From: Prevotella sp. HUN102 | GTDB taxonomy: Bacteria > Bacteroidota > Bacteroidia > Bacteroidales > Bacteroidaceae | Assembly: GCF_000688375.1 (NCBI RefSeq) | Contig: NZ_JIAF01000004.1 | Location: forward strand, 434,001-498,000 | Direction: 5' to 3' | Length of the DNA stretch: 64,000 nt | In this document: positions 10,464-61,835 of the stretch, in pieces | How positions within the stretch are numbered: position 1 is the stretch's first letter | Layout: every line of letters begins with the position of its first letter | Notes under the pieces: model-generated | Databases searched by the model: none | What the model was told of the DNA's origin: nothing | What the model saw: only the letters and a program-made list of their open reading frames with translations | Position numbers and translations under genes: made by a program

Positions 10464-10516
10464 TGTGCGAAGAACGCACTATCATCTTCGCACGATTGAT
10501 TTCCATTCTTCGCAAG
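10464..10516. repeat. Phased CTTCGCAAG-type array (three sites)
   Basis: TGTGCGAAG, CTTCGCACG and CTTCGCAAG are centred at 10468, 10490 and 10512, 22 bp apart. Upstream at 10253-10275 is a segment (CGTATTTGAAAAATAAAA) also found near the right ends of element copies 2 and 3, so 10230-10520 may be a rearranged copy. The rest of 10163-10827 holds no convincing gene. Confidence 0.65.
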
Positions 10517-10827
10517 AATAAAAACCTCCGTAATGGAATTGCAGAAAAAAGCGAGAGAACCTGATCCTTATTTTTCCAGAACAGAGTTTCCGGAAGTGTT
10601 AAAATCCTACCATTTTTATTTACAGTTCTGGGGCAGATTAAGTCTGAAACGGCAAGATAATAGCGAAACCGACTCGTTTGCCCGGCAACCCGGCAACTCG
10701 TCGGCTTATCAACTTGCCCTCAACCTGCCCCTAACTCGGATTGCACTATGCGTTTTTCATAAATTCCCTTTGCAGTTCCCCCGAATTACACTAACTTTGC
10801 AATCAGATAACAAATAATCAAGCATAT

Positions 10828-12891
10828 ATGGAAGAAAAGAAATTCAAGCGCACCACCGTTACGGCCGCATTGCCTTATGCCAACGGAGGTGTTCATATAG
10901 GCCACCTTGCCGGAGTCTATGTGCCTTCTGACATCTACGTCCGCTACTTGCGACTGAAGAAAGAGGAAGTAATCTTCATCGGAGGAAGCGACGAACACGG
11001 CGTGCCTATCACGCTGCGTGCCAAGAAAGAAGGCGTTACGCCACAGGACGTTTGCGACCGTTACCACAAGATGATCAAGGATTCCTTCGAGGAATTTGGC
11101 ATTTCGTTCGATGTTTACAGCCGTACCACCAGCGAAATCCATCATAAATTCGCCTCAGATTTCTTCCGTAAGCTCTACGACGAGGGCAAACTCACGGAAC
11201 AGGAAAGCGAACAGCTCTACGACGAGGAAGCTAAACAGTTCCTTGCCGACCGATACGTGATGGGCGAATGCCCCCATTGCCACAACGAGAATGCCTATGG
11301 TGACCAGTGCGAGAAGTGCGGCAGCGACCTCAGTCCTATGGAACTGATCAATCCCCGTTCCACCATTTCCGGTTCAAAGCCCGTAATCAAGAGCACCAAG
11401 AACTGGTATCTGCCGCTGAACGACTATCAGGAATGGCTCAAGCAGTGGATTCTCAACGAGCACAAGGAATGGCGTCCGAACGTTTACGGCCAGTGCAAGA
11501 GCTGGTTGGATATGGACTTGCAGCCCCGCGCTATGACGCGCGACCTCAACTGGGGTATTCCTGTACCCGTAGAAGGTGCTGAGGGCAAGGTGCTCTACGT
11601 ATGGTTCGATGCGCCTATCGGATATATCTCGAACACGAAGGAACTCTGCGACCGCGAACCTGAGCGTTTCGGCACTTGGCAGAAGTGGTGGCAGGATCCG
11701 GAATCGCGTCTTGTACACTTCATCGGCAAGGACAACATCGTGTTCCATTGCGTCATCTTCCCGAGTATGCTCAAGGCACACGGCGACTATATACTGCCGG
11801 ACAATGTGCCGTCCAACGAGTTCCTCAACCTTGAGAACGATAAAATATCCACAAGCCGCAACTGGGCTGTGTGGCTTCACGAGTATCTCCGCGACTTTGA
11901 AGGCAAGCAGGACGTGCTGCGCTACGTGCTTACGGCGAATGCTCCCGAGACAAAGGACAACAACTTTACGTGGAAGGATTTTCAGGAGCGCAACAACAGC
12001 GAGCTGGTAGCCGTGTACGGCAACTTCGTGAATCGTGCATTGCAGCTCACTTGGAAATATTGGAACGGCGTTGTGCCTGCGTGCGGCGAACTGCTCGACG
12101 TGGACAAGCAGGCAATTCAGGAATTTAAGGACGTGAAGGAGAAGGTGGAAGGCTATCTCGATGCGTTCAAGTTCCGCGAAGCACTCAAGGAAGCGATGAA
12201 TCTGGCGCGTATCGGCAATAAGTACATCACTGAATGCGAGCCTTGGAAGGTGTGGAAGACCGACCCGAAGCGTGTCGAGACCATCCTCAACCTCTCTCTC
12301 CAGTTGGTTGCCAACCTCAGCATCGCCTTCGAACCGTTCCTTCCTTTCAGCAGCAAAGAGCTTCGCCGGATGATCAATATGACGGAATACGAATGGGCAT
12401 CGCTCGGTTCTACCGACCTGCTCAAGGCCGGACATCAGCTCAATGAGGTGCATCTCCTCTTTGAAAAGATTGAGGACGACGCCATCAACGCACAGCTCCA
12501 GAAGCTCGAGGACACAAAGAAGGAGAACGAAGCAGCCAACTACAAGGCTGAACCTCTCAAGGCCGACATTCCTTTCGAGGACTTCGAGAAGCTCGACATC
12601 CGTGTAGGGCACATCATCAAGTGCGAGAAGGTAAAGAAGAGCAAGAAGCTCCTCCAGTTTACCATCGACGACGGTTCGGGCACAGAGCGTACCATTCTCA
12701 GCGGCATCGCTGCCTACTACGAGCCGGAACAGCTCACGGGCAAGGACGTGCTCTTCGTTGCCAACTTCGCGCCCCGTAAAATGATGGGCATCGAAAGCCA
12801 AGGTATGATTCTTTCAGCCGTCAATTTCGATGGTTCGCTTACTGTAACGACTACGATGGGCGAAGTAAAGCCGGGCAGTCAGGTGGGTTAA
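10828..12891 (+). CDS. metG: Methionine--tRNA ligase
   Basis: A 687-aa class I tRNA synthetase charging tRNA-Met. N-terminal [22 protein letters not shown] holds the HIGH motif, [11 protein letters not shown] the Met pocket, [18 protein letters not shown] the zinc knuckle insert, and [11 protein letters not shown] the KMSKS-like loop. The C-terminal 110 residues ([26 protein letters not shown]) are the EMAP/Trbp111-type tRNA-binding and dimerisation domain, as in E. coli MetG. A TAACTTTG box lies at 10792-10799, giving a short leader. Monocistronic: a hairpin follows about 65 bases after the stop. Confidence 0.97.
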
Positions 12892-12955
12892 GCACACCGG
12901 AATTACCCCCTCCGGGGCATATCAGTCCCGACAGCAGCTATCCTCTATCAAAAAA

Positions 12956-12995
12956 ATCATCCTCATCAGCTCCTGATAAAGCCGATGAGGATGAT
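12956..12995. terminator. Hairpin after metG
   Basis: Perfect 12-bp stem ATCATCCTCATC (12956-12967) / GATGAGGATGAT (12984-12995), preceded by an A-run and followed by TTCCTTT. Confidence 0.65.
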
Positions 12996-13085
12996 TCCTT
13001 TGGGGAGAGAAACGAGGGAATTATCCCTGCATCCCTTTTCCATTAATATCACATTCAAGAAATAAACACCAATCATTTAAATACG

Positions 13086-13205
13086 ATGAAGACGGCATTC
13101 ACTTTACTGCTATTTATCTTTGCAGGCATCCTTGCACTCTCTTCCAGTACAGGTAACATCGAAGAAGACGTCAAGCTGCAATTATTGAAGTACATAACTG
13201 TGTAA
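13086..13205 (+). CDS. Possible small exported peptide (39 aa)
   Basis: ATG at 13086 opens a 39-codon frame: MKTAFTLLLFIFAGILALSS, an ideal signal-peptide-like segment, then a 19-residue tail STGNIEEDVKLQLLKYITV. It may be a genuine small secreted or membrane peptide, or the leftover 5' end of a lost gene. Against it: the coding stretch itself contains TATCTTTG, which could be a promoter box, and there is no second line of evidence. Confidence 0.35.
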   Translation: MKTAFTLLLFIFAGILALSSSTGNIEEDVKLQLLKYITV

Positions 13206-13351
13206 TCTCAACTGTGTCAAGGCTCAAATCCTTTATTCACTTCCATCCGTGGATAATACGATTTTTCTTTACATTACATTTATTGGTCAATAAGGTATAC
13301 CAACATTGCAATCCTATTGATTTACAACCATTTACACACGAACTTAAATTG

Positions 13352-13412
13352 CAATGCAATCTTCGCAAGAATGGAAATAGAAAATTTATCCATTGATTAT
13401 CAGTCATTTATG
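13352..13412. repeat. Short CTTCGCAAG element with tail, copy 1
   Basis: CTTCGCAAG centred at 13365, then ATGGAAA and ATTGATTATCAG starting 27 bp after the centre. One site only; the position 22 bp upstream is degenerate. The remainder of 13206-13598 shows nothing else. Confidence 0.6.
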
Positions 13413-13598
13413 GTGGTTGTGAAAAATAAAACAAGTTGAGAAGAGAGAAAGTAGAGAAGGAAGCCAGTTGATAGTGAAAGTGAACCAATGTGCTTTACTG
13501 TTTATCCCACCGTTTAAGCACCATTTTTCTTTGTTTTCTTGAATTTTCGAGGCGATTTCCCCTTTCTCCCTAATAATATATAAATATCTCGTATTTAT

Positions 13599-13629
13599 TT
13601 TGTTATACGATTAACTTGCAGTAACTTTG
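13599..13629 (+). promoter_or_regulatory. Promoter of metK
   Basis: TTTG (13599-13602), 19 nt, TAACTTTG (13622-13629), then a 35-base leader. Confidence 0.7.
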
Positions 13630-13664
13630 TAGTCTTTAAATCAATTTCAGTATAAATTTAGGAT

Positions 13665-14957
13665 ATGGCGTATTTATTTTCATCGGAATCGGTATCAGAG
13701 GGACATCCTGACAAAGTTGCTGACCAGATCAGCGACGCATTGCTCGACCAGTTTTTGGCTTACGACAAGAATGCCCGCTGTGCGATTGAGACTTTCAACA
13801 CTACGGGACAGGTGGCTATTATGGGCGAGGTACGTTCTTCACAGTATATCGATCTTCCTACGATTGCCCGTAACACAATCAATAAAATAGGTTATACAAA
13901 GGCTGAATATCAGTTCGATGGCAATAGCTGCGGCATTCTTTCCGCTATCCACGAGCAGAGTTCAGACATCAATCGTGGTGTGGACAACGGCGATGAGGAC
14001 AATCAGGGTGCCGGCGATCAGGGAATGATGTTCGGCTATGCCTGCAACGAGACAGACAACTATATGCCTGTTACGCTCGATTTGGCGCACCTTCTTATGA
14101 GCACCTTGGCTGATATCCGCAAGGAAGGCAGGGAAATGCTTTATCTGCGTCCGGATTCAAAGAGTCAGGTTACGGTGGAATTCAGCGACGACAACATACC
14201 ACAGCGCATCGTTACTATTGTGGTTTCAACCCAACACGACGATTTCATCAAGCCGGCTGATAACACGGTGGAGGCTCAACTGAAGGCCGACAAACAGATG
14301 TTGGATAAGATTTACGAGGATGTGGTCAATATCCTGATGCCACGTGTGAAGGCACAGATTACATCTGATAAGGTGCTTGCACTCTTCAACGATGATATTC
14401 AATACCACGTGAACCCTACGGGCAAGTTCGTTATCGGCGGTCCTCACGGCGATACCGGTCTTACCGGCCGAAAGATTATCGTAGATACCTATGGAGGTAA
14501 GGGAGCACACGGTGGTGGTGCTTTCTCAGGTAAGGATTCATCAAAGGTAGACCGTTCGGCAGCCTACGCGGCACGCTACATCGCAAAAAATATGGTTGCG
14601 GCGGGAGTGAGCGACGAGGTGCTCGTGCAGTTGGCCTATGCCATCGGCGTTGCAGAGCCGGTAAGCGTGTATGTGAACACTTACGGCCGTTCACACGTGA
14701 ATATGACAGACGGCGAGATTGCCGAAAAGCTCAAGGCAATGTTCGACCTTCGTCCGAAGGCTATCGAACGCCAGTTGAACCTCCGTCAGCCGATGTATCT
14801 CGAAACGGCTGCCTATGGCCACATGGGGCGCAAGAACGAGAAGGTAATGAAGACTTTCGAGAGTCATTATCACGAAAAGAAAGAAATTGAAGTGGAGCTG
14901 TTTACTTGGGAGAAACTCGACCGGGTAGACGAAATAAAGAAGGCTTTCGGTCTTTAA
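13665..14957 (+). CDS. metK: S-adenosylmethionine synthetase
   Basis: A 430-aa enzyme that makes S-adenosylmethionine from methionine and ATP in the cytosol. It begins [21 protein letters not shown] with the ATP-binding His, has [12 protein letters not shown], and the P-loop-like [22 protein letters not shown]. It is longer than E. coli MetK (about 384 aa) through an internal segment near residues 150-220, a known feature of Bacteroidetes enzymes. It heads a tightly spaced run with the DUF4271 gene (7-bp gap) and hemD. Confidence 0.97.
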
Positions 14958-14964
14958 ATAAACT

Positions 14965-15930
14965 ATGGCGAAGACGGACTCAACAGCAATCCCGCCATAT
15001 ACCGCAAGTGTAAACCGGCAAGAGAGCACAGCAGGGCAGGACACAACTGCCACCTCTATGCTGCTGATGAAAGATAGTGTGGCGCAGACTGAATCATATC
15101 AGTCTGCGAACTCGCATCTTATGGATTCCTTTGATCTCCCGGGTTTCAGTCTTTTCGGCAAGGAAATGAAGGGATTGGACGGGTTTTTCAACAAGGATTC
15201 CGAACTTGGTTCCCAAATGGGAACCGTACACGATGGCGTTTTGGGCGATCCTGCACCGTACAGTGTCAGCAATGATGATACTGTTGCCGGTGCATTGCTC
15301 GTTTGTTTCGCCTTGGCAATGCTTGCCGCTTCGATGTCGCGCAACTTCATATTGCGCCAACTGAAAGGCTTGTTCCATCTTCCCCACCGGCGCACGAACG
15401 TGGGCGAGACGGCCTACGAGGTGCGTTTCCAGTTGTTTTTGGTGGTGCAGACGGCACTTATGTTCAGCATTACCTATTATCTCTACAATCGCAGCCTTAC
15501 CGGCGGTTCGTATATCTTCGATTCGCAGTTGCTTGTCATGGGCATCTACTTCGCCATCTTCCTTGGCTATTTTCTCATTCGGTATTTGTTGTATTCCGTT
15601 GTAAACTGGGTTTATTTCCCACGCAGGAGCAATATTCAGTGGGCGCAGTTCCGCCTCTTCCTCACATCGGTGGAGGGAGTGCTGCTCTTTCCCGGCGTTC
15701 TGCTGCTGATATATTTCGGAGTATCAATAGAATATGCGCTGATTTACGTTGCAACTGTTGTGATTCTGACCAAAATACTCACCTTTTATCAAGGGTTTGT
15801 AATCTTTTTCAAAAGAACAAATGTCAGTTTGCAAATAATTTTGTACTTTTGTGCCCTTGAATTAATGCCATTGACGGCATTGTTGGGCATCTTGACATAT
15901 ACAGGTAACTATTTGACTATAAATTTTTAA
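14965..15930 (+). CDS. DUF4271 membrane protein
   Basis: A 321-aa protein: about 100 polar, Ser/Thr-rich residues, then several hydrophobic segments (VAGALLVCFALAMLAASM, LFLVVQTALMFSITYYLY, LLVMGIYFAIFLGYFLI, GVLLFPGVLLLIYFG, and two more). It matches the DUF4271 family, which in Bacteroidetes sits directly before hemD, as here (6-bp gap). No biochemical role is established; the constant neighbourhood suggests a membrane role tied to tetrapyrrole synthesis or simple transcriptional coupling. Confidence 0.85.
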   Translation: MAKTDSTAIPPYTASVNRQESTAGQDTTATSMLLMKDSVAQTESYQSANSHLMDSFDLPGFSLFGKEMKGLDGFFNKDSELGSQMGTVHDGVLGDPAPYSVSNDDTVAGALLVCFALAMLAASMSRNFILRQLKGLFHLPHRRTNVGETAYEVRFQLFLVVQTALMFSITYYLYNRSLTGGSYIFDSQLLVMGIYFAIFLGYFLIRYLLYSVVNWVYFPRRSNIQWAQFRLFLTSVEGVLLFPGVLLLIYFGVSIEYALIYVATVVILTKILTFYQGFVIFFKRTNVSLQIILYFCALELMPLTALLGILTYTGNYLTINF

Positions 15931-15936
15931 GATACG

Positions 15937-16686
15937 ATGATAAAAAAAATCTTGGTATCACAGCCTAAACCGGCTAGCGATAAGTCGCCATACTACGACA
16001 TTGCTAAGGAACTTGGTGTTGATTTGGTGTTCAGACCATTCTTCAAGGTTGAGGGATTATCTGCAAAAGAGTTCCGTCAGCAGAAGATTAATCTGCTCGA
16101 TTACACGGCTGTGGTATTCACTTCGCGCCACGCAATTGACAATTACTTCAAGTTGGCGCAGGAAATGCGCATTACCATTCCTGAAACGATGAAGTATTTC
16201 TGTGTTATTGAGACGATAGCACTGTATATACAGAAGTATGTCCAATACAGAAAGCGCAAGGTTTTCTTCGGCGATTCAGGAAAGATTGACAGTCTGATAC
16301 CACAGATGGTCAAGCATAAGGACGAGAAATATCTCATACCTCAAAGCTCCGTTCACAACGATGCCATCAACGACTTGCTTACAAGCAACAAACTCAAGCA
16401 TAAGGAGTGCGTGATGTATCGCACCGTGAGCAACGACCTGACCGAAGAGGAGAAGAAATCGTTCGACTACGACATGCTCGTTTTCTTCAGTCCGACCGGC
16501 GTTCGTGCGCTGAAGGACAATATGCCGGACTTTGTTCAGGGCGATATTAAGATTGCGGCGTTTGGTCCTGCTACTGCAAAGGAAGTGATAGATCAGGGAC
16601 TTCGTCTCGATCTCGAGGCTCCTTCAAAGGAATATCCTTCGATGACCGGTGCTTTGCGCGCTTTCTTGGAAAAGAACAATAAGTAA
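15937..16686 (+). CDS. hemD: Uroporphyrinogen-III synthase
   Basis: A 249-aa HemD-family protein that closes hydroxymethylbilane to uroporphyrinogen III in heme and cobamide synthesis. The two-lobe fold is visible as paired motifs: LLDYTAVVFTSRHAIDNYF in lobe one and DMLVFFSPTGVRALKDNM followed by IAAFGPATAKEVIDQGL in lobe two. HemD sequences diverge strongly, but these positions and the length fit. No other heme biosynthesis gene lies in the window. Follows the DUF4271 gene in the same transcript. Confidence 0.88.
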   Translation: MIKKILVSQPKPASDKSPYYDIAKELGVDLVFRPFFKVEGLSAKEFRQQKINLLDYTAVVFTSRHAIDNYFKLAQEMRITIPETMKYFCVIETIALYIQKYVQYRKRKVFFGDSGKIDSLIPQMVKHKDEKYLIPQSSVHNDAINDLLTSNKLKHKECVMYRTVSNDLTEEEKKSFDYDMLVFFSPTGVRALKDNMPDFVQGDIKIAAFGPATAKEVIDQGLRLDLEAPSKEYPSMTGALRAFLEKNNK

Positions 16687-16745
16687 GTTGGAATCTTTTC
16701 CAACCTGTTCTTTGTTTTCAAAAACCAATTAATTTCCAACAGATT

Positions 16746-17249
16746 ATGCCTACTCTCCACAGCAATACATTCCGAAAGGAGGAACGGCTATGCAGCAAGA
16801 AGCTCATAGACACGCTCTTTTGTGGAGGAGGCAGCAAGTCGCTCGCTGCATTTCCACTAAGGGCAGTCTATCTGGAAATGAAAACAGCCTGTGAGAAAGC
16901 AAGTCCCGTCTGTGAGGAAGCGAAAACAGTCTGCGTTGAAGCGGAAGACAGTTCGGATTCCATCGCAGCATCAGACGTAAAAGCAGCAGAAAGCCATCAT
17001 CCTCAAGTGCAGATGCTCGTGAGTGTTCCGAAAAAGCACTTCAAGAGAGCCGTGAAGCGCAACAGGGTAAAGCGGCAGGTGCGGGAAGCCTATCGCAAGA
17101 ATAAGACTATCTTGCTCGACAAACTGTCGGAAAATCCCGACAAGCACATTTTGCTTGCCTTCATCTGGTTGGCCGACGAACTGTACGGTACGGCAGAAAT
17201 TGAGGCAAAAGTATGCAATCTGTTGCAGCGAATCTCTGAAAGAATCTAA
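16746..17249 (+). CDS. rnpA: Ribonuclease P protein component
   Basis: A 167-residue RnpA, the protein subunit that helps the RNase P RNA remove tRNA 5' leaders. N-terminal [18 protein letters not shown] and the RNR signature [21 protein letters not shown] are present. It is longer than the usual 115-130 residues because of an acidic, Cys/Glu/Ser-rich insert of about 40 residues (about residues 40-80) between the first strand and the [14 protein letters not shown] strand. Here it follows hemD rather than rpmH, and precedes yidD by 10 bp. Confidence 0.93.
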
Positions 17250-17259
17250 GCGTAAGAGG

Positions 17260-17517
17260 ATGAAGAAGATGTGGATACATAGAATACTTCGCTTTGTTTC
17301 AAGCCTATTTACTTGGTTACTTCTCTTGCCGATACTCTTTTATCAGCGATTCATAACTCCCTTTACGCCGCCTTCGTGCCGTTTCACACCCACCTGCTCC
17401 GAGTATGCCCGGCAGGCTTTGAAGAAACACGGCCCGATCAAGGGACTGGCACTGGCCGTCTGGCGGATATTGAGATGCAATCCTTGGGGTGGAAGTGGGT
17501 ACGATCCCGTTCCGTAA
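17260..17517 (+). CDS. yidD: Membrane protein insertion efficiency factor YidD
   Basis: An 85-aa protein: one hydrophobic N-terminal segment ([20 protein letters not shown]) and the family signature with three Cys, [18 protein letters not shown] and [17 protein letters not shown]. YidD works at the inner membrane with YidC. The rnpA-yidD adjacency is conserved in most bacteria. The start at 17260 follows rnpA's stop closely; the frame is open further upstream but would run inside rnpA. Confidence 0.92.
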
Positions 17518-19195: not shown

Positions 19196-19351
19196 TCCTG
19201 TTCCTCTTTTCCGATAAAAATATATCAAAGTAAAGTTATGGCAGCATAATATCTGTCTGGTAAGTTCTCAATAAAAGTGGAATGAATTTAGGTAGTTTCG
19301 CAAATATATAATGTCTTTTAAACTATTGAAAATCATTGGATAAATTTATGT

Positions 19352-19412
19352 ATTCCTATTCTTCGCAAAAATGGAAACCCACTTTTTATCCATTGGTTTT
19401 CAACTACTTACA
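19352..19412. repeat. Short CTTCGCAAG element with tail, copy 2
   Basis: CTTCGCAAA centred at 19365, then ATGGAAA, then ATTGGTTTTCAA beginning exactly 27 bp after the centre. The remaining spacer (19196-19576) has no gene. Confidence 0.6.
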
Positions 19413-19576
19413 AAACATCACTATACTTGAAAAGGAAGTCGTTTGAAGTTTGGGAAAGTATGCCTAATCTGAATTGCAATGCGCTCAAAATTAATATTTC
19501 TCTCATAATTTCCTCATTATTGTTTTCAGCAAAAAGTCAGGAAATCGTTCGGGAAATTCAGGTCATTTGATAAACG

Positions 19577-23169: not shown

Positions 23170-23348
23170 TTATAATTAGGTTTTGTCTTGCTTAGAGGCA
23201 AGTTAGTTATTTGTTTACAATGTGAAAGCAAAATTAGGCATTATAAATGAAATAAGCAACTATTGGGCATAAAAAAAGTGTCCATTGGGTGCATTTTGTT
23301 TAAAAATTGCTCTACGGCATTGTTTTCTATGCCCGGAAGCGATTCAGT

Positions 23349-23765
23349 TTTGTAAAATTCGTTTACCAAAAAACGCACATTTTTTTTCTTCAATTTAGAA
23401 ATCACAGGCGCATAATTGGACGATTGGCACGCAGTTTTCGGAGCTTTTCGGTGCAAGTGTGCGAAGCGTGAAATGCAGGTGTGCGAAGATTGCATTGCGT
23501 TTCTGCGAAGATTGCAAATCGCTTTTCGCAGCAATGCAAGAGAAATCTGCGACAAGCAGCACGAAGAAAAGGTTGTTATTTCGGATTAATTGTCCTATTC
23601 GGGAATCAACTCGCTGTTCTTTTATGCACATATATCAGCAAAATAAGTATATCCTGCTGATATATAAACATTTATACTTGCACAAGAATTACGGCCGTAT
23701 TTGAAAAATAAAAATATTCTTTCCGAAATAATCGAATTATGGAGAGCCTTTTGTAAATATTATTC
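23349..23765. repeat. Long phased-palindrome element, copy 2
   Basis: Bounded by TTTGTAAA at 23349 and 23750. Sites TGTGCGAAG, TGTGCGAAG, TCTGCGAAG and a weaker TTTCGCAGC are centred at 23462, 23484, 23506 and 23528: 22 bp apart, the first 113 bp from the left end, as in copy 1. No gene in 23170-23853. Confidence 0.75.
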
Positions 23766-23853
23766 AGACAAAAAGGCTGCCGCCGAGGGAATAAGTGGGC
23801 AAGGAGACAAGCCAACAGGGAGACAAGGGAACAGGGGAAATGCCCCCTGAAAC

Positions 23854-32848: not shown

Positions 32849-33643
32849 ATGCTTGGAGCAATCATCGGGGACATTGCAGGCTCACGCTTTGAATTTAGAG
32901 CTGCACCACAGAAAGATTTTGAATTATTCACAGACCAGTGTTCATACACCGACGATACGATTTGTACCGTCGCCATTGCTGATGCCGTATTGAACCACCG
33001 CGACTATCAGGAGGCATTACTGGACTGGTGCCGGCGTTATCCTGACCCTATGGGCGGTTACGGCAACTGTTTCTACGACTGGATACATTCGCGGAATCCT
33101 CAGCCGATGAACTCATTCGGCAACGGCTCGGCTATGCGTGTGAGTCCCATCGGATGGCTGTTTACGGATTGGCAGGACGTTATCGGGGAGGCAAAGAAGA
33201 GTGCCGAAGTGAGCCACAACCACCCCGAAGGCATCAAGGGAGCGCAATGCACGGCAGAGGTTATCTGCTGGTTGCGGTATATGCGCTATACGAAACCCGA
33301 CATTGAAAGGAAAGTGGAAAAGTTCTATGGCTACGAACTTCCTCCGATGAAGGACATTCTGAAGATAGGCGCACAAGGACACTTCGACGGAACCTGTCAG
33401 GAAACCGTCCCGATGGCGTTGCGCTGCTTTATGGATGCCAACGACTTCGAGGAAACCATCCGTATGGCCGTGCTCTGCGACGGCGACACCGACACCAAGG
33501 CGTGCATTGCCGGCTCGATTGCCGAGGCTTATTATGAGATTCCCGAATGGATGATTGAAAAGGCATTCAGCTATCTTCCCGACGATATGCTCGCCATTCT
33601 GGAGCAGTTCTACGATGCCATACGGGTAGATATAAACAAATAA
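32849..33643 (+). CDS. ADP-ribosylglycohydrolase family protein
   Basis: A 264-aa protein of the DraG/ADP-ribosylhydrolase family, which removes ADP-ribose from proteins, nucleic acids or small molecules. Magnesium ligands are visible at both ends: CSYTDDTICTVAIADA near residue 30 and LCDGDTDTKACIAGSIAEAYY near residue 210. The start MLGAIIGDIAGSRFEF is typical. It begins 76 bases after tRNA-Arg and may share its transcript. No ADP-ribosyltransferase partner is visible, so the substrate is unknown. Confidence 0.9.
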   Translation: MLGAIIGDIAGSRFEFRAAPQKDFELFTDQCSYTDDTICTVAIADAVLNHRDYQEALLDWCRRYPDPMGGYGNCFYDWIHSRNPQPMNSFGNGSAMRVSPIGWLFTDWQDVIGEAKKSAEVSHNHPEGIKGAQCTAEVICWLRYMRYTKPDIERKVEKFYGYELPPMKDILKIGAQGHFDGTCQETVPMALRCFMDANDFEETIRMAVLCDGDTDTKACIAGSIAEAYYEIPEWMIEKAFSYLPDDMLAILEQFYDAIRVDINK

Positions 33644-33735
33644 AAGTGCGATATTCCGAAACAATATCGCCACTCACGCAACCTTCATTTCAGACTGATA
33701 GAAAAGCATTTTGCAAACGACCGAAAAACGCAGCG

Positions 33736-33835
33736 CAATCTTCGCAAGAATGCGCTGCGTTTTTGCGAAGAATGGAACGCAATCTTCGCAAGATTGGAAA
33801 TCAACTTTTCACACATTGATTTTCAGACACTTACA
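33736..33835. repeat. Short CTTCGCAAG element with tail, copy 3
   Basis: CTTCGCAAG, TTTGCGAAG and CTTCGCAAG are centred at 33744, 33766 and 33788, 22 bp apart. ATTGATTTTCAG begins 27 bp past the last centre. Adjacent sites in opposite sense can pair (GCAGCG.. / CGCTGC..). The rest of 33644-34040 shows no gene. Confidence 0.7.
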
Positions 33836-34100
33836 ATCTTGAAAGATTTAAACCTATCGCACATTCAGAATCATAGTCTGATGAAAGACACCAACACGTA
33901 CAACTCATCTTCATCAGCACTTCACTAATGCAATTCCAACCTTCATCTATCAATCGTTTTAGAGCAAAATTGTTTACTGCCATAATGCCTTTATCCTCTA
34001 TACTTTGGAAAAAGAATTTCATAAAATTGAAAAAATATTTTATTTTTGTGTCACAAAATCTTTCTAATCACGTATTAAGGGTGTAACGTACAAAAAAGAA

Positions 34101-38394: not shown

Positions 38395-38606
38395 TGCACT
38401 CCTTATTATATAAGGTGCAAAAATAAGGAAAAAGAACGAGATAAAGCCATATTTCAAGCATAAATTCTCAATCGGCAGCCTTCATTCGAGCAGCATCGCA
38501 GCCTCATCCTCCCATTATTCGCCCGAAGAGGAGAAACGATTCTGCCGTCAATTCGCCCCTTGCGACGCCTCATCGCATAGCCTTCCATTCAGCGCAAACT
38601 CCGAAA

Positions 38607-39002
38607 TCTGTAATAAATAATTACGCTAAAAAGCACATTATTTTTCTTCAATCCAGAGATTTTCAAGCCTTGCCCGGACGCTTAAAAGCGATTTTTCGGA
38701 CGTTCGGAATGCAAGAAAGCGAAGACTGCAATGTATTCTTGCGAAGAACGTCTGCCGATTGTCGCAAGAATGCAAGGCGAATATTCGAGGAATGGAGGGG
38801 AAAATAAGGTCGTCTGTTCCGTTTTATTGTCCCATTTGCGAACTCATTGCAAATATTTCATTGCACAGATATGCTATTTAGCGAGTAGATTCCTTGATAT
38901 ACAAACGATTACGATTGCACGCTCAAAACTCGCGTATTTGAAAACGAAAAATATTTTGTTGAAAATAAACGAATTATGGAGACTGTTTTGTAAATAATAT
39001 TC
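38607..39002. repeat. Long phased-palindrome element, copy 3
   Basis: Left end TCTGTAAT at 38607 and right TTTGTAAA at 38987. Sites AAAGCGAAG, CTTGCGAAG and TGTCGCAAG are centred at 38720, 38742 and 38764, a degenerate fourth at 38786; the first lies 113 bp from the left end as in copies 1 and 2. No gene in 38395-39181. Confidence 0.72.
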
Positions 39003-48235: not shown

Positions 48236-48511
48236 AGATTCTGTTTTAATTCTATTTTTCTATTTGTATTGCAATAGTTTGAGTTTGCAGACAAAGATAA
48301 TACTAAAAAACAAATTTTATATTATTTGTCGGCAGAAAATTATGATTTATACAGCACTTCGAGCAAATATCCCTAAATAGAGCTATGCCTTAATTCTCCT
48401 TTCCACCGTCAAAGTAGAAGCATTGAAAAGCTGCAAAGAGTGCAATTTTCGTAAAATATTTTCAGGTGGAAATACCATCGGAAAATGTTTGTCGTATACT
48501 TGCACGGCAAT

Positions 48512-48602
48512 CTTCGCATAAATGTCGTGTAAACGTGCGAAGATTACTAAGCATTCTTCGCAAGAATGGAAATGAAGTTCTTACACATTGATTATCAAAT
48601 AT
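48512..48602. repeat. Short CTTCGCAAG element with tail, copy 4
   Basis: CTTCGCATA, CGTGCGAAG and CTTCGCAAG are centred at 48516, 48538 and 48560, 22 bp apart; ATTGATTATCAA begins 27 bp after the last centre. Confidence 0.7.
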
Positions 48603-48762
48603 TTAACTGTATGGATTCTGAAAACTGAAGATTGTGCCTTATTGCAAAGACGAAAAGCACGCAGAGGAAAGGACAGTGAAGACTGTCGGTAAGCCTTTTC
48701 GGGCTGTTGCTGACAGCCATTAAGAAAACGTAAGGAAAACCATTGCCCGGAAGATATGCTTC

Positions 48763-54922: not shown

Positions 54923-54971
54923 TGCATTAAAACTTTTAATGCGGATGCAAAATATTCTTTGAAAAGTTAAT

Positions 54972-55033
54972 GCCAAGTACCTAACAAGCCGAACGTGGAC
55001 AAAGGGCTTCATCCACATTCAGAGGTACTTGGC
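54972..55033. repeat. Inverted repeat upstream of the acyltransferase gene
   Basis: Perfect 11-bp arms GCCAAGTACCT (54972-54982) / AGGTACTTGGC (55023-55033). Inside are AAGCC/GGCTT and GTGGA/TCCAC. The right arm also belongs to the larger structure at 55016-55138, so two folds compete. Confidence 0.7.
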
Positions 55034-55138
55034 GGAACCTATAATACAAGATGATGCACCAATGCCCACGCATAACGCAGGCATCTGCACATTCATTCTC
55101 TTGTATTACATTCATTCTACCGCCAAGTTTTCTGAATG
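55016..55138. repeat. Large nested inverted repeat (cruciform or structured RNA)
   Basis: Four successive paired segments: CATTCAGA (55016) / TCTGAATG (55131); CTTGGCGG (55028) / CCGCCAAG (55120); AATACAAG (55043) / CTTGTATT (55100); GATGC (55053) / GCATC (55081). The order is consistent with one long stem of 123 nt with bulges. The surrounding 54923-55461 has no gene. Confidence 0.72.
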
Positions 55139-55461
55139 TTCAAGAACAAATAGCAAACGCTAATTTCCAATAAAATTATCCATCAGTTTTCACTGGATGG
55201 AACAAGTGCTGCAAAGATAGCAAATAATAGAATAATATCAAAATAATGCAGTTCCCTATTTTAATAATGATACACACGCGTATCTTCAACAAAGAAGACA
55301 CGTGTCTCGTCTGATAGTCTGCACGCTTCAAACAGAATACAGAAAAAGAAGAAAAAAATGGAGTAAGGCGAAAAGAAATTATAGTGAAAAGATAAGTCCA
55401 ATATCAGTTCACTTATCCAATAATTCTATCAGATAACAGACTTTAGGATAGTAAAAAATAA

Positions 55462-55497
55462 ATGGTCGGATTTCATTAATCTGAAATCCGACCATTC
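55462..55497 (-). terminator. Terminator of secDF
   Basis: 15-bp perfect stem AATGGTCGGATTTCA (55462-55476) / TGAAATCCGACCATT (55483-55497). On the minus strand it is followed by a T-rich run. Confidence 0.88.
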
Positions 55498-55522
55498 ATT
55501 ATATGTTAAACGGAAACTTCCG

Positions 55523-58500
55523 TTATGCGTTTTCTGCTGCCTCAGCTGCCTTTTCGGCTGCAATGCGGTTCTCAATCTTCTTACCCAAAACACGGTAGGC
55601 TACCGGCGAAGCGATGAAGATTGAAGAAAGTGTACCGAAGAACACACCGAGAATCATTGCGAATGCGAAGCTACGGATGCTGTCGCCACCGAGAATGAAG
55701 ATGGCAAGCAACACAATCAATGTAGAGAATGATGTATTGACAGTACGTGCAAGCGTCTGATTGATGGAATCATTGAACAATGTCTGTGCGTCCATCTTCG
55801 GATGCAGGCGCATATTCTCACGGATACGGTCGAATACAACCACCTTATCGTTGATAGAGTAACCGATAACGGTAAGGATAGCACCAATGAAGGTCTGGTC
55901 GATTTCGAGCGAGAATCCAATCCATCCGTGGCAGGCTGAGTAGAATCCTATCACAATCAGGGCGTCGAGAGCCAACGCAACGATTGAACCGACAGAGAAA
56001 CCGACGTTGCGGAAACGAGCCAAGATGTAGATAAAGATAAATACCAAAGCCAAGAGCACGCTGATGATAGCACCGTATGTGATATCCTTAGCTACTGAAG
56101 GACCTACCTTTGCAGAGCTGATGATGGAGCCACCGTCGTGAATGCCTGAATCGCGGAACGTCTTCAAGTCTGCCTGTGTGATGAGCTTAGCCTTCGACAA
56201 TGCCTCGAAAAGCACTGTTTCTGCGTGATCGTCTTCAGCAGGGTCGTTAGACTCGATATTGTAGTTGGTGGAAACGCGGACAACGTCACCGTCAGCACCG
56301 ATGGCAATAACGTTTGTACTTGCCACCTTGCCCTTGTTCTCACCTGAGGTATTAACGAATGCGCCGTTGAGCACCTTTCGTACATCCTCAACAGGAACTT
56401 TCTTCTCAAGTTTCACAACATAGTTGCGGCCACCGGTAAAGTCAATACTCTGGCTCAATCCTCTTACGAAGAAGCAAACGATGAAGAGAACGGCAGCAAT
56501 GCCCCATATAACGAATGTCTTGCTTGAAAGACTCATAAACTTCACGTGAACGTTCTGCAAGAGGTTCTTGCTGAAACCTGTGTAGAACTTCAAGTCGAGC
56601 CACTTATCCTTGTTAAGACGGTTTTCGTAAACGATACGTGTCAGGAACACGGCTGTGAAGAATGAGATACAGATACCGATAATCCAAGTGATGGCGAAGC
56701 CACGGATAGGACCAGTACCGGTTGTATAAAGGATGATACCCGTGATGAGTGATGTCAGGTTAGAGTCGAGAATAGCCGAGAACGCATTGCTGTAACCTGC
56801 ACGCAAAGCTTCCTTGATACCCTTTCCTGCACGCATTTCTTCCTTGATGCGCTCATAGATAAGCACGTTAGCATCCACAGCAGTACCGAGAGTAAGCACA
56901 ATACCGGCAATACCGGGCAATGTAAGTGCAGACTGGAACGATGCAAGCACACCGAGTGTGAAGAACAAGTTGGCCAACAACGCAAAGTTAGCAAGCATAC
57001 CCGGGATGAAGTTATACATCAGAACCATATAAACCATCAGAAGTACGAATGCAATGAGGAACGACATCAGACCCTGCTGGATTGACTGTGCTCCCAATGT
57101 AGGACCAACTACCTGTGCCTGTACGATTCTGGCAGGTGCTGGCATACGACCGGACTTCAATGTGTTTGCCAAATCCTTTGTATCCTCCACGGTAAACGAA
57201 CCGGAGATTGAAGACTGACCACCGTCGATCTGCTGTTTGATACGGGGAGAGGTGTAAACAAGACCGTCGAGAACCACGGCTACTGCCTTACCAATGTTCG
57301 CTTTTGTGAGGTTTGACCATCTGCGGGCACCGTCAGAGTTCATCGACATACTTACTTCAGGACGTCCGAATTCGTCGAATTTGTCCTCAGCATTCGTAAT
57401 CACGTCGCCTTCGAGCGCAGCACGGCCATCTGATGTGGTAACCTTCAGAGCGTGGAGTTCGTAGATATTCTTCTGCTTGAGACCATCTGCCGGCTTAGCA
57501 CTCCAAAGGAGCTTCAGATCCATAGGGAGAACCTGCTTTGCCAATTCGCTGTAAATAATCTTGTTGATGTAAGCCGTGTCTCTAACGTTTGCATAACCAA
57601 CGATGCTCAAAGCGTCGCCGGGAGTGAGTTGGAGTACTGCCAACAACGGATTCTTCTTCTTTGCTGCTTCCAACTGTGCAGAAGATGAAGCATCGCCATT
57701 GTTCAAAGCGAGCTTATTGTTAGCTACCGGATCAGCGGCAGGCTTCTTTTCAGCAACCTGTTTTGCAGAGTCGGCAACAGCATTTACCGTATCCTTTGGC
57801 TCAACCTTTGTATCGCCATTGGCAACACGCTGATCCAAATCGGCCAGATAAGGAGCAATTTCCTGACTGTTGTAGGTTTCCCAGAACTCAAGATTGGCAG
57901 AACCCTGCAACAACTTACGCACACGCTCAGGGTCGCTTACGCCCGGCATTTCCACCATCAAGCGACCTTCCTGACCTTCGAGCTTTTGAATGTTAGGCTG
58001 AGATACACCGAACTGGTTCACACGGTTCGTAACAACGTTGTATGAGTTGTCGATGGCAGCCGTTACTTCAGCACGAAGTGCAGCCTCAACTTCCGAGTCA
58101 GAGCTTTGCGTATTCACTTTACCCTTGAGCTGCTGTGTGGCAAAAATCTCCGCAAGACGGCGACCGGGAGCGTTCTTGTGGAACGCATCGATGAAGAGAG
58201 AGATGAAATCATCCTGACTCTTTGTCTCCAATTCCTTTGCTTCTGCCAAAGATTTCTGGTAAGCCGCATCTTTTTTGTGATCTGCAAGAACGTCTACCAC
58301 GTCGGGAACAGAGATTTCAAGAATGACATTCATACCACCCTTAAGGTCAAGACCAAGACCAAGCTGCGTTTCCTTACACTTCTGATAAGAATAGCCGAAC
58401 ACAGGGTATGTAACAGAATCCTTGTAATCCTGCTGTGCAATAGGGTCTTTGATTTTTGCAATCTCACCGTCCCAGATGCTGGTCATAGCACTGAAAGACA

Positions 58501-58564
58501 GGTAGAAGATGCTTGCGAGCGTCAGCAAGACGGCAACACAAATAACTAATCCTTTGTTTTGCAT
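55523..58564 (-). CDS. secDF: Fused SecD-SecF protein translocase subunit
   Basis: A 1013-aa natural fusion of SecD and SecF, the proton-driven partners of SecYEG in protein export. SecD half: first membrane helix, GLDLKGGMNVILEI, the P1 periplasmic domain with FGVSQPNIQKLEGQEGRLMVEMPGV, and the membrane block GMLANFALLANLFFTLGVLAS.. GTAVDANVLIYERIKEEM. SecF half from about residue 680: SIDFTGGRNYVVKL, YILARFRNVGFSVGSI.., FIGAILTVIGYSINDKVVVFDRIREN. The fusion is standard in Bacteroidetes. A low-complexity Ala/Lys linker lies around residues 255-310. A TATCTTTG box at 58742-58749 implies a leader of about 170 nt. Confidence 0.97.
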   Translation of the reverse strand: MQNKGLVICVAVLLTLASIFYLSFSAMTSIWDGEIAKIKDPIAQQDYKDSVTYPVFGYSYQKCKETQLGLGLDLKGGMNVILEISVPDVVDVLADHKKDAAYQKSLAEAKELETKSQDDFISLFIDAFHKNAPGRRLAEIFATQQLKGKVNTQSSDSEVEAALRAEVTAAIDNSYNVVTNRVNQFGVSQPNIQKLEGQEGRLMVEMPGVSDPERVRKLLQGSANLEFWETYNSQEIAPYLADLDQRVANGDTKVEPKDTVNAVADSAKQVAEKKPAADPVANNKLALNNGDASSSAQLEAAKKKNPLLAVLQLTPGDALSIVGYANVRDTAYINKIIYSELAKQVLPMDLKLLWSAKPADGLKQKNIYELHALKVTTSDGRAALEGDVITNAEDKFDEFGRPEVSMSMNSDGARRWSNLTKANIGKAVAVVLDGLVYTSPRIKQQIDGGQSSISGSFTVEDTKDLANTLKSGRMPAPARIVQAQVVGPTLGAQSIQQGLMSFLIAFVLLMVYMVLMYNFIPGMLANFALLANLFFTLGVLASFQSALTLPGIAGIVLTLGTAVDANVLIYERIKEEMRAGKGIKEALRAGYSNAFSAILDSNLTSLITGIILYTTGTGPIRGFAITWIIGICISFFTAVFLTRIVYENRLNKDKWLDLKFYTGFSKNLLQNVHVKFMSLSSKTFVIWGIAAVLFIVCFFVRGLSQSIDFTGGRNYVVKLEKKVPVEDVRKVLNGAFVNTSGENKGKVASTNVIAIGADGDVVRVSTNYNIESNDPAEDDHAETVLFEALSKAKLITQADLKTFRDSGIHDGGSIISSAKVGPSVAKDITYGAIISVLLALVFIFIYILARFRNVGFSVGSIVALALDALIVIGFYSACHGWIGFSLEIDQTFIGAILTVIGYSINDKVVVFDRIRENMRLHPKMDAQTLFNDSINQTLARTVNTSFSTLIVLLAIFILGGDSIRSFAFAMILGVFFGTLSSIFIASPVAYRVLGKKIENRIAAEKAAEAAENA

Positions 58565-58741
58565 TTTATTTTTTGTTTAATTATTGTTTCAGGTTTCCAA
58601 TTTGAGAAGGCAAAAGCAGCTTATCTCTATTTTTTTCAACAGCCCTTCTTCGCACTTCCTCGTCTTTTTTTGTGATAATGTCCCGTGTACGAACCCGTTT
58701 TTTCAGCCAAGTCGTTAATTACAAGACACTATACAGACGTG

Positions 58742-58749
58742 CAAAGATA
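58742..58749 (-). promoter_or_regulatory. -7 box of secDF with long leader
   Basis: Minus strand TATCTTTG about 178 bases before the secDF ATG. The leader has no ATG-initiated frame; a 24-codon frame from TTG is present but unsupported. Confidence 0.5.
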
Positions 58750-58798
58750 GATAAATTTTCACATTTTTGAAAATTTATAACGCTTTATTCTCCATTTT

Positions 58799-59899
58799 TT
58801 AAGGTTTTGGCTTGTATTTTAGCCAAGTATATATCGGATAGTGATCGGAAGTCTTTACTTTATCATCCACTTTAGCACCGTAAGGCTCAAAATCGTCGGA
58901 GCAGAAAATATGGTCTATCCGGAAGTACATTCCACTCTTGTGATACGAAATACCCGGTCCGTTTCCACTTTCTATGTAGCAGTCCGTCAGTTCGTTTTCC
59001 ATCGTGCGGTGCACATAACTGATAGGATTGTCGTTGAAATCGCCGCAGAGAATTACCGGAAGTCGCTTTGCCTTACATTTACGAACAAATGCTGCCACGG
59101 CGTCGGCCTGTGGAGCACGTATAGCCGATGCCTCGCCGAGCTTTCTCAAGAGCCGGAACGACACATCCTTGGAATCCTTCCTCTCGAAAGGTTTCTTCAC
59201 AATCTCCTTATACCCTTCCTTGTCTTCCTCGCTAAGATGATAGCTTTCAAAGTGATTATTGATTATTGCCATCTCCGTTCCGTTGTAATCCACAAAATAT
59301 GCCATACTCATATTCCCTACCGACTCATACGATATTCTCTCTTTTCTCAGGATAGGGAAACGGCTCAGCAGTATCATATTCTGATTTCCGGGAGGCGGCA
59401 TATTGACGATATCGACGTGAGGATAATGCGCCTTCAATTCATTATACACTTCATCGGCTCCCGCTTCGTAGGCACTCGACTCCTGCAAGCACACGATATC
59501 GGCCTTGCTCTTACAGATATATTCCACAATCGGGTTGGACTCGCCTTCCTGCAATCCCCACGGGGCAAACATTAATACATTAAACGACATTACCTTCAGC
59601 GCATTCTGAGGAGGGTCGGATGGATAATTGAAAGGTATGTACCTGCGCACGGGCGCGTAACAGACAAGCAATCCCAACACCGGCAACCAAACGGTTCGGA
59701 TGCGGGCAAACGTCCAAAAGACAAGAAAACCAAGATTCACGGCAAGCAGCACAGGGAATCCCAGGCCTAAATTCGCCCACATCGGATGCTCAACAGGGTT
59801 AAGCCTATCAACGTTTCCAACGAGCCACATAGCCGCAATGGCGATGACATTGAGACCAACCGACATCCAATAAGCAGTAGTTTTTACTTTAGAAAACAT
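58799..59899 (-). CDS. Endonuclease/exonuclease/phosphatase-family protein with N-terminal membrane segments
   Basis: A 366-aa protein: three N-terminal membrane helices (VGLNVIAIAAMWLVGN, LGLGFPVLLAVNLGFLVFWTF, VWLPVLGLLVCYAPV), then an EEP-fold catalytic domain: VMSFNVLMF, IVCLQES with the metal Glu, INNHFES, VILCGDFNDNP, RIDHIFCS, TSDHYPIYTWL. All catalytic residues are present. Substrates in this family include DNA, phosphoinositides and sphingomyelin; the target here is unknown, with the active site probably on the outer face of the inner membrane. It follows the rhomboid gene by 6 bp. Confidence 0.9.
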   Translation of the reverse strand: MFSKVKTTAYWMSVGLNVIAIAAMWLVGNVDRLNPVEHPMWANLGLGFPVLLAVNLGFLVFWTFARIRTVWLPVLGLLVCYAPVRRYIPFNYPSDPPQNALKVMSFNVLMFAPWGLQEGESNPIVEYICKSKADIVCLQESSAYEAGADEVYNELKAHYPHVDIVNMPPPGNQNMILLSRFPILRKERISYESVGNMSMAYFVDYNGTEMAIINNHFESYHLSEEDKEGYKEIVKKPFERKDSKDVSFRLLRKLGEASAIRAPQADAVAAFVRKCKAKRLPVILCGDFNDNPISYVHRTMENELTDCYIESGNGPGISYHKSGMYFRIDHIFCSDDFEPYGAKVDDKVKTSDHYPIYTWLKYKPKP

Positions 59900-59905
59900 A
59901 GTTCG

Positions 59906-60853
59906 TTACTGTCTGCTGCTGTCGAACAACTGCTGCTTCTCCTCCTTCGTCAAGCTGTCGTAGCCGCTCTTGCGTATTTTGTCGAGAATACGGTCTATCT
60001 GTTCCTGCTCTCTTTGCTTTCGGGCGTTGTAGTCCCAGTCGCTTTCAGGACGGCTCTGCTGGTTCGTGGCACTCGAGTTCCACTTCGTTCCTCCCTGTTG
60101 CGCATTGCTGTTGCGACGCGTGCGCTGCTCCCACGTATTGCGCATATTGTCGAAAAACTGCCTTCCGCCGCTTGTTCCGAATCCTCCACCCGAATAAGGA
60201 TGCTTGCGCCAGTATCTTATGAGCAGGAATCCGAAGAGCATACCGCCCAAGTGAGCCAAATGCGCCACACCGTCGTTGCTCGTTCCAAATGCCGAGAACA
60301 ATTCCATCGCTATCGAACCTACGATAATCCATTTTGCCTTTACGGGCACTGGTATCGGAATGATAAACATCCGTTCTTCAGGAAACATCATACCGAAGGC
60401 AAGCAACACGCCGTAAACTGCTCCTGACGCGCCAACCGTTGTCCATAGATTAAGATAATCGCTCATCGGCAATGATGTTCCGCCCATATTCACAGCATCG
60501 TACGCATTCAAGCCGTTGTAGAGATAGGAGCCATATTGTGCAAGCTCCTGACAGATACCCGCACCAATGCCACAGACGAGATAGAAAATGAGGAACTTCC
60601 TGTCGCCCCATACATTCTCAACCACCGTTCCGAACATCCAGAGCATAAACATATTCATCAGAAGGTGCATAAAACCTCCGTGCATAAACATATACGTGAA
60701 GAGCTGCCACACCTTGAAATCCTCAGCAAGGAAGAAGTGAAGCCCCAGCATATCATTCAAGTCAATCCCCATCCCTCCGAATATGAAGGTGGCAAGAAAA
60801 GCCCCGATGTTGATAATGAGAAGATTCTTTGTTACGATTGGTATGTTGCGCAT
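59906..60853 (-). CDS. Rhomboid intramembrane serine protease
   Basis: A 315-aa protein: six membrane segments in residues 1-225, then a cytosolic Gly/Arg/Gln-rich tail of about 90 residues. Catalytic Ser in TVGASGAVYGVLLAFG and catalytic His in AHLAHLGGMLFGFLLIRYW; the HGGFMHLLMNMFMLWMFG and WGDRKFLIFYLVCGIG signatures are intact. Cleaves membrane-protein helices; substrates unknown. First gene of a two-gene transcript with the EEP protein; a TATTTTTG box at 61013-61020 gives a leader of about 155 nt. Confidence 0.93.
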   Translation of the reverse strand: MRNIPIVTKNLLIINIGAFLATFIFGGMGIDLNDMLGLHFFLAEDFKVWQLFTYMFMHGGFMHLLMNMFMLWMFGTVVENVWGDRKFLIFYLVCGIGAGICQELAQYGSYLYNGLNAYDAVNMGGTSLPMSDYLNLWTTVGASGAVYGVLLAFGMMFPEERMFIIPIPVPVKAKWIIVGSIAMELFSAFGTSNDGVAHLAHLGGMLFGFLLIRYWRKHPYSGGGFGTSGGRQFFDNMRNTWEQRTRRNSNAQQGGTKWNSSATNQQSRPESDWDYNARKQREQEQIDRILDKIRKSGYDSLTKEEKQQLFDSSRQ

Positions 60854-61102
60854 AATTTCTTATTAATAGTTATCGAAAAACATTCTTTCAGCATTTCCGT
60901 CCCGACTGCCGAATCCTTGCTCTCAAAAGCTCCGTTCAAGCAGAAAACTCGGCATTTCAGGCACTTTCCGTGCATCGGTCTCCGAAAAGAGAATAAAATC
61001 CTTTATTGACTGCAAAAATACGAAAAAAACCTGTTATATTGCATAAAATGAGCACATAAGCCACATTTTTAAGAAAAAACTTCACTTTTCTTTTGCTTTT
61101 TG

Positions 61103-61133
61103 TTTGTTTTATAAAAGTAAACAACTATATTTG
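61103..61133 (+). promoter_or_regulatory. Promoter of the HU gene
   Basis: TTTG (61103-61106), 19 nt, TATATTTG (61126-61133). The spacer holds GTTTTATAAAAGTAAAC, similar to the operator at 39186. Confidence 0.7.
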
Positions 61134-61183
61134 CAGCAGAGTTGGAAAAATAATTCAAAAATAATCAATAAATTGAGTAAATT

Positions 61184-61459
61184 ATGAACAAATCAGAATT
61201 AATCGAAAAGATCGCAGCCGGCGCAGGTTTGAGCAAGGCTGACGCTAAGAAGGCATTGGATGCCACAACAGAAGCTATTAAGGAAGCACTTGCCGCTAAC
61301 GACAAAGTTCAACTCGTAGGTTTCGGTACTTTCTCTGTCAATGAACGTCCTGCTCACGAAGGTATCAACCCATCTACAAAGCAGAAGATTAAGATTGCTG
61401 CAAAGAGGGTTGCTAAGTTCAAGGCTGGTGCTGAACTTGCTGACGCAGTAAACGCATAA
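61184..61459 (+). CDS. hup: HU-family DNA-binding protein
   Basis: A 91-residue nucleoid protein: MNKSELIEKIAAGAGLSKADAKKALDA, then VQLVGFGTFSVNERPAHEGINPST and the basic arm region KQKIKIAAKRVAKFKAGAELADAVN. Length and signature match HU/IHF subunits that bend DNA with little sequence preference. A strong promoter and a terminator frame it, so it is monocistronic. The leader is about 50 nt and A-rich. Confidence 0.96.
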   Translation: MNKSELIEKIAAGAGLSKADAKKALDATTEAIKEALAANDKVQLVGFGTFSVNERPAHEGINPSTKQKIKIAAKRVAKFKAGAELADAVNA

Positions 61460-61480
61460 TTGTAATTTGATATTACAAGG

Positions 61481-61520
61481 AAAGGGCGACTTCATTATGA
61501 GGTCGCCTTTATTCGTTTTA
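61481..61520 (+). terminator. Terminator of the HU gene
   Basis: AAAGGGCGAC pairs with GTCGCCTTT (one bulged G), then ATTCGTTTT. Confidence 0.8.
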
Positions 61521-61714
61521 CCACAATATAATTTACCTAATACTGGAAAACCTCAATCCACCTGTATTTTCATTTACGTAATTTCGTCCGTTGAATTAAT
61601 CTCTCCTACATCTTTTTCTGTCTCCTTATCCATTCGAATATCTCTCTGGAGAAACCGTATCATAGGCCTAATGAAATAGGAATAATTCAGGCGATTGAAA
61701 AGTTGATTTGCAAT

Positions 61715-61835
61715 CTTCGCAAAAACACAGCGCATTCTTCGCAAAAATGGAATGTATTCTTGCGAAGATTGTATTATATTCTTCGCAAGATTGGAAATCG
61801 AATTTTAATGCGCTTATTTTCAGATAATTATAAAA
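61715..61835. repeat. Short CTTCGCAAG element with tail, copy 5
   Basis: CTTCGCAAA, CTTCGCAAA, CTTGCGAAG and CTTCGCAAG are centred at 61719, 61741, 61763 and 61785, exactly 22 bp apart. The tail (TGGAAAT.. TTATTTTCAG) follows with the same spacing but weaker sequence. No gene in 61521-61947. Confidence 0.78.

Follow-up and report, generated by a model that had tools for sequence, protein, structure and literature searches.

Rows of short palindromic sites that repeat at a step of 22 bp between the genes of Prevotella sp. HUN102 are the cores of two families of longer elements of nearly fixed length, and other species of the genus carry arrays built on the same plan from unrelated sequences. 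The window analyzed here is a 64,000-nucleotide stretch of this genome (positions 434,001 to 498,000 of contig NZ_JIAF01000004.1; genome G000, contig C4), the assembly of which comprises 3.32 Mb in four contigs and is 99.96% complete. An earlier note on this stretch described the arrays; it missed that they are part of longer fixed-length elements, that no other species is known to share their sequence, and that their period is common to the genus. Our tentative explanation, to which we give close to an even chance, is that the elements, scattered between genes, offer a dimeric DNA-binding protein rows of phased docking sites on which neighboring molecules would be bound cooperatively.

To measure the register of the sites, the 7-mers CTTCGCA and TGCGAAG were located in an 864-kb sample of the genome (the window and 40 further stretches), and all pairs lying at most 120 bp apart were counted. 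In the window, such pairs were found at 22 bp (n = 14), 44 bp (n = 8) and 66 bp (n = 2) and at no other distance; in C1:1-400000 there were 52 at 22 bp, 31 at 44 bp, 13 at 66 bp and 1 at 88 bp, again with no others. The complete sample contained 372 sites, and 254 of its 279 close pairs were separated by exact multiples of 22 bp (137 at 22, 83 at 44, 31 at 66, 2 at 88, and 1 at 110). The spacing histogram that had been proposed as a check thus peaks at 22 bp and its multiples beyond the window as well. The claim that the period never changes was borne out within the window, but the register is not absolute: 25 of the 279 pairs in the 864 kb fall outside it, several of them in copies of family II (described below) with an extra site 53-54 bp past the array. 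Of 40 letter-shuffled 7-mers used as a control (repeats possible), the best yielded 20 close pairs in the 864 kb, with no more than two at any one distance. Genome-wide, a two-site pattern with up to three mismatches matched 235 times on one strand and 220 times on the other, compared to 26 and 22 for a reversed control. The exact 9-mer CTTCGCAAG occurs eight times in the window, and with at most one mismatch 31 times, against 19.7 expected; 31 was reached by 1 of 100 shuffles. The 9-mer count alone is therefore mildly unusual, and the spacing is the extreme part. By eye, the listed centers are all present in the window and in register, the degenerate sites at 23528, 38720 and 38764 included. 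Seven of the nine spacers said to hold repeated sites do contain arrays, whereas the remaining two carry single sites (13365 and 19365).

The description of the sites as odd pseudo-palindromes that occur in either orientation was correct; they read CTT-CGC-AAG or CTT-GCG-AAG. An array core comprises two to five of them, typically 17 bp each and followed by 5 bp to complete the 22-bp step, with arms of approximately 7 bp around a 3-nt center that may face either way. A second dyad, AWTGC-nnn-GCAWT, lies half-way between neighboring sites.

Clustering of the flanks and profiles of the ends revealed two families of non-coding intergenic elements around these cores. Family I is approximately 140 bp long: the 146 columns of alignment A1 accommodate 38 copies, each of 145 bases, with a gap elsewhere than in the first column in only three copies and a mean pairwise identity of 0.65. 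It consists of a left end, B (...ACGATTTGCAA), after which comes a CCGAAG or TGCGAAG site, and a right end, A (...TTGATTTTCAAnnACTTACAAA), and its array holds four sites at 22-bp steps in the consensus orientation -+-+. A B end was recognized for 24 of the 40 family I A ends of the sample, and the normalized B-to-A length was 133 (n = 22) or 132 (n = 2). In family II, three or four sites lie between a D end, which is about 110 bp long, and a C end of some 235 bp. Its 23 two-ended copies measured either 395-403 bp (15 copies) or 421-424 bp (8 copies) between the ends of the profile matches; the extra 22-24 bp of the longer copies, which fits one more unit, falls after the first sites and ahead of the C motif. 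Mean pairwise identity in this family was 0.54 within the elements (range 0.44-0.94) and 0.52 when short flanks were included. Both families have sharp outer ends, TTTTGTAAA and TTACAAA. In our own calling of open reading frames, which covered 71-78% of the DNA, no gene was called inside the 23 family II copies or 24 family I copies. Partial and degenerate copies also occur, and the two single sites of the window, each of which adjoins the conserved A end of family I, look like decayed elements.

The array pattern of this species' unit had 119 matches in its own genome and one in 59 relatives (here and below, other genomes of the same genus), and the exact unit was found neither in viral contigs nor in a collection of genome contigs, from which its own genome may have been left out. 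As far as searched, the unit would thus be private to the species. When a sequence profile of family I was used instead, weak matches were obtained in 16 of the 59 other genomes, compared to at least 53 scored candidates in its own; inspected by eye, 18 of 20 such places (all except L101 and L102) turned out to be 22-bp arrays of unrelated sequence, with units such as CAATCCTGSCAGGATTG in G068 and AATCAGGCCCAAATTGCATTGC in G001. To examine the period without regard to sequence, 995 kb from 23 relatives and 532 kb belonging to 14 genomes from other families were scanned with a 44-bp window for the best lag between 12 and 60, at a threshold of 28 of 44. The relatives yielded 39 arrays at lag 22 and six at lag 44, whereas the other lags averaged 0.98 arrays and never exceeded 5; at least one lag-22 array was present in 13 of the 23 relatives, and none was found in the 14 genomes of other families. 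Lowering the threshold to 26 gave 49 lag-22 arrays in the relatives and one in the other families, at a higher background (22 at lag 12). A single 241-kb contig of G017 held 22 arrays at lag 22 and eight at lag 44, with no more than two at any other lag. One G017 copy was shorter by exactly 22 bp.

The symmetry of the sites is also found in these unrelated arrays. Palindromicity averaged 0.731 in the 39 lag-22 arrays and 0.562 in simulated tandem 22-mers; a value of at least 0.75 was reached by 21 of the 39, compared to 2% of the simulated arrays and 6 of 59 arrays at other lags, leaving 18 of the 39 below it. In 33 of the 39 the symmetry was centered on a base. The clear palindromes read, by eye, as 4 + 9 + 4 bp followed by a 5-bp spacer, and in both G017 and G068 the two core orientations occur at 22-bp steps.

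The sample contained 74 elements, which by extrapolation corresponds to approximately 280 in the genome. To examine their placement along the chromosome, pairs less than 450 bp apart were partly merged and the elements were then compared with 5,000 random placements into gaps of at least 150 bp. Among the 29 elements in 400 kb of C1 the closest neighbors were 4,484 bp apart, and among the 45 in 464 kb of C4 they were 2,882 bp apart, minimum distances that none of the 5,000 placements matched on either contig; distances below 3 kb were observed zero and one times, respectively, compared to 4.3 and 8.8 expected. Copies therefore avoid each other along the chromosome. The coefficient of variation of the spacing was in addition low on C4 (P = 0.007). 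Of the 39 syntenic gaps common to G000 and G017, two hold an element in G000. The clean case is the gap before metG (10162-10828), which is 669 bp long and carries a variant family II copy here, compared to 60 bp in G017; the other measures 2,544 bp here and 65 bp in G017, and may hold more than the element. That the metG gap is short in the relative and element-bearing here suggests gain by insertion.

What is shown is the structure and distribution; a protein that reads the elements, their function and their way of spreading are inferred. According to the explanation offered at the outset, the elements would act as DNA, and each palindrome would be the site of one dimeric protein. With about 11 bp to each helical turn, the 22-bp step would span two turns, placing the sites on one face of the helix so that neighbors would bind cooperatively, and the copies would be docking points scattered between genes. 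We propose that protein and sites change together between species, the spacing being kept while the letters are replaced. That length is nearly fixed and the step fixed in spite of sequence drift argues that geometry is under selection, and proteins aligned along one face of the DNA would naturally be spaced by an exact step of about two helical turns, which favors docking arrays. Cooperative binding to one face had already been suggested for these arrays; it is partly supported by the recurrence of the period with other units elsewhere, by the near-fixed length and by the mutual avoidance of the copies, while the binding protein itself is a conjecture. A broader version, that a fast-evolving chromosome-organizing protein common to the genus uses such arrays, their geometry of a few odd palindromes per element at 22-bp steps, with kilobases between elements, being kept and the recognized sequence replaced by each species, seems to us rather doubtful. 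Several observations weigh against a docking role. Ten of the 23 relatives, with 20 kb sampled from each, had no lag-22 array at the threshold of 28; the two syntenic gaps that hold an element here contain no array in G017, so that element positions are not conserved; and evenness of spacing is not general, the coefficient of variation being ordinary on C1 (P = 0.32) and the case of G017 not clear (coefficient of variation 1.11; six distances below 3 kb compared to 9.1 expected, P = 0.11). An 11-bp alternation of G+C, which would point to intrinsic bending, was not general either: it was seen in 16 of the 39 arrays and was negative in G000.

The main rival, which we consider unlikely, is that these are non-autonomous, MITE-like mobile elements in the manner of BrickBuilt, the 22-bp rows being sites for a transposase acting in trans and the avoidance between copies reflecting target immunity. 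Mu and Tn7 display target immunity, and their transposase sites are of about 22 bp. The high number of scattered copies, the sharpness of the outer ends of both families, the metG gap and the mutual avoidance are all in line with such elements. A classical MITE is nevertheless at odds with the lack of a consistent flanking duplication in the 38 family I copies, the exact left boundary of which is uncertain, and neither family has a clear terminal inverted repeat: TTTTGTAAA stands at both ends of family II in the same orientation, and only a weak inverted pair was seen by eye in G017. A Mu/Tn7-type transposase was sought in ten genomes through PF09299 and gave no match, but neither did the controls, so that absence is not shown. 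An autonomous partner was sought among matches to the end profiles away from arrays, of which there were 9 for A, 8 for B, 26 for C and 9 for D at E up to 1. The C matches below E 0.01, which are those inspected, look decayed, partial, interrupted by insertion sequences or like family I arrays, and none of the matches inspected, which come from 26% of the genome, revealed a transposase gene between the same ends. An exact search with the end motif is a weak test because the motif occurs twice, both times in family II. An origin of the RAYT/REP kind was rejected, as PF01797 had no match in G000 while the controls were positive in 5 of 14 genomes, including E. coli.

Rows of RNA hairpins in untranslated regions, serving as terminators, stabilizers or attenuators in the way suggested for REP/BIME, are in our judgment clearly improbable. 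A 17-nt palindrome with a 3-nt center can fold into a 7-bp hairpin, and the hairpins between neighboring sites that had been suggested earlier receive some backing from modest covariation in family I, where the outer arms of sites 1-2 (z = 2.9) and 3-4 (z = 2.7) covary (whole arms 1.9 and 1.7) and complementarity across the 2-3 axis is below expectation (z = -3.4); these values are hints, as relatedness was not corrected for. Across the axis of single sites, d 8 alone showed positive covariation (z = 3.1), the other positions having none or negative values, because the center triplet is asymmetric. The consensus of family II has a fold energy of -28.0, compared to a mean of -0.7 for 30 column shuffles, although this rests mostly on invariant pairs. 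On the other side, no difference in predicted RNA energy was seen between family I and chimeras (|z| at most 1.5), an Rfam search of the window found nothing beyond three tRNAs, and RNA offers no obvious reason for an exact step of 22 bp. The elements moreover lie in gaps of all orientations (35 tandem, 20 convergent and 18 divergent) in about the proportions of all gaps (116, 49 and 54). Neutral repeats, with units arising by tandem duplication and centers flipped by template switching at inverted repeats, appear the least probable. They would account for central triplets in both orientations, for the G017 copy that is short by one step, and for four family I copies of A1 in which, by eye, sites 1 and 2 form an extended mirror (ACCGAAG/CTTCGGT, the flanks matching as well), but not for a nearly fixed element length or for a length of 22 that is common to unrelated units across species and to different units within G068.

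Dispersed palindromic repeats are usually explained one sequence family at a time. Here spacing and symmetry outlive sequence, 22 bp being kept across species and between families in one genome. That unrelated units all keep this length points to a constraint on geometry and suggests that the layout, rather than the sequence, matters. Nearest in kind are PINSR, REP/BIME and BrickBuilt. PINSR is described as an intergenic repeat of Prevotella with a 188-bp consensus and 177 and 184 copies in two strains, which have three-quarters of the PINSR-containing regions in common; it is limited to a few related species, lacks terminal inverted repeats and was judged distinct from MITEs. The elements reported here are likewise of fixed length, high in copy number, intergenic, without clear terminal inverted repeats, and from Prevotella; they differ from the description of PINSR, which mentions neither a 22-bp step nor internal palindromes. 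PINSR may belong with these arrays to a wider class. REP/BIME are extragenic palindromes, usually in more than 100 copies per genome, that differ in sequence by species, are regularly spaced in BIMEs with alternating orientation, and have IHF, DNA gyrase and DNA polymerase I as named binders (PMC2817692). Our elements are similarly extragenic, palindromic and, in family I, alternating in orientation; in contrast to REP/BIME, the origin of which is defined by a RAYT gene, they have no such match in their genome, no GTAG/GTGG-type tetranucleotide (by eye) before the palindrome in the family I consensus, and a fixed step and length. BrickBuilt of Porphyromonas gingivalis comprises 19 elements of 84-991 nt with 1 to 22.8 copies of a 23-nt direct repeat, IS5-like terminal inverted repeats and GAGACC ends (PMC4596501). 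It too is intergenic, species-limited and non-coding, with short repeats between a leader and a tail, but here the step is 22 bp (137 pairs, compared to one at 23), the sites number two to five, the length is nearly fixed, and the outer ends are not GAGACC. A literature search returned PINSR and BrickBuilt, and no title or opening of an abstract in it described a 22-bp palindrome period in Prevotella; the passages of PMC8082180 and PMC5771137 are not relevant to such a period.

Table. Copies of the two element families in the window (positions are those of the 64,000-nucleotide stretch).
Feature	Position	Strand	Basis
Family II element; D end, sites 4658/4680/4702/4724, C end	4544..4967	+	Both end profiles matched; length 423
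Variant family II copy; C-end match 10223-10342, sites 10468/10490/10512, other end ill-defined	10223..10516	-	
Putative decayed family I copy; one good site 13365, A end 13371-13411	13270..13414	+	Left limit by analogy
Putative decayed family I copy; one good site 19365, A end 19371-19414	19270..19414	+	Left limit by analogy
Family II element; sites 23462/23484/23506, degenerate 23528	23348..23771	+	Length 423
Family I element; sites 33744/33766/33788, preceded by a CCGAAA variant	33693..33837	+	A1 alignment; B-to-A length 133
Family II element; degenerate 38720 and 38764 flanking 38742	38606..39002	+	Length 396
Family I element; sites 48516/48538/48560	48465..48609	+	A1 alignment
Family I element; sites 61719/61741/61763/61785	61690..61834	+	A1 alignment

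Insertion sequences seem to enter family II elements. At C1:248422-249342 (L043:8422-9342), an open reading frame for a 306-aa transposase, presumably IS982-like, ends beside a family II C end that starts in the middle of the profile, and near C1:168735 an end resembling that of this locus interrupts another C end. At C4:525264-526628 (L052:7264-8628), a DDE transposase gene (PF01609 and DUF4372) lies between inverted ends, GTCCACTAAAAA, and divides the C end of a family II copy in two.

Further observations were made on the relatives. G068 seems to hold several families of 22-bp arrays, with cores of the types CCTGSCAGG, CCTTTC..GAAAG and AACTTTGTT (L115, L116 and L118), and its locus L086 carries a dispersed repeat with a 28-bp perfect inverted repeat, TGTAGGGGCGAACCCCTGTGTTAGCCCG, similar sequence being present in L085. 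Copies in G024 (L096, L097 and L098) share long flanks past the array, for example ATATAAGTGTCGAAGTGT, and this genome may have a longer element family of its own. The G017 copies L149, L150 and L151 start with TTTTGTAAAGATAATTC, which closely resembles the outer ends of family II in G000, while the arrays between them differ; we take this motif to be similar to a Bacteroidetes -7 box in reverse. For the arrays of other species, TGATNNTCA..TTA was considered as an outer end in common and rejected, being 10.6-fold enriched near them on five occurrences and facing outward in 3 of the 39 arrays. In the window itself, positions 32849-33643 encode an ADP-ribosylglycohydrolase; among the best 120 of 7804 matches to it, five carry an organism name, in each case Prevotella, and the closest of these is from Prevotella ihumii (79% identity).

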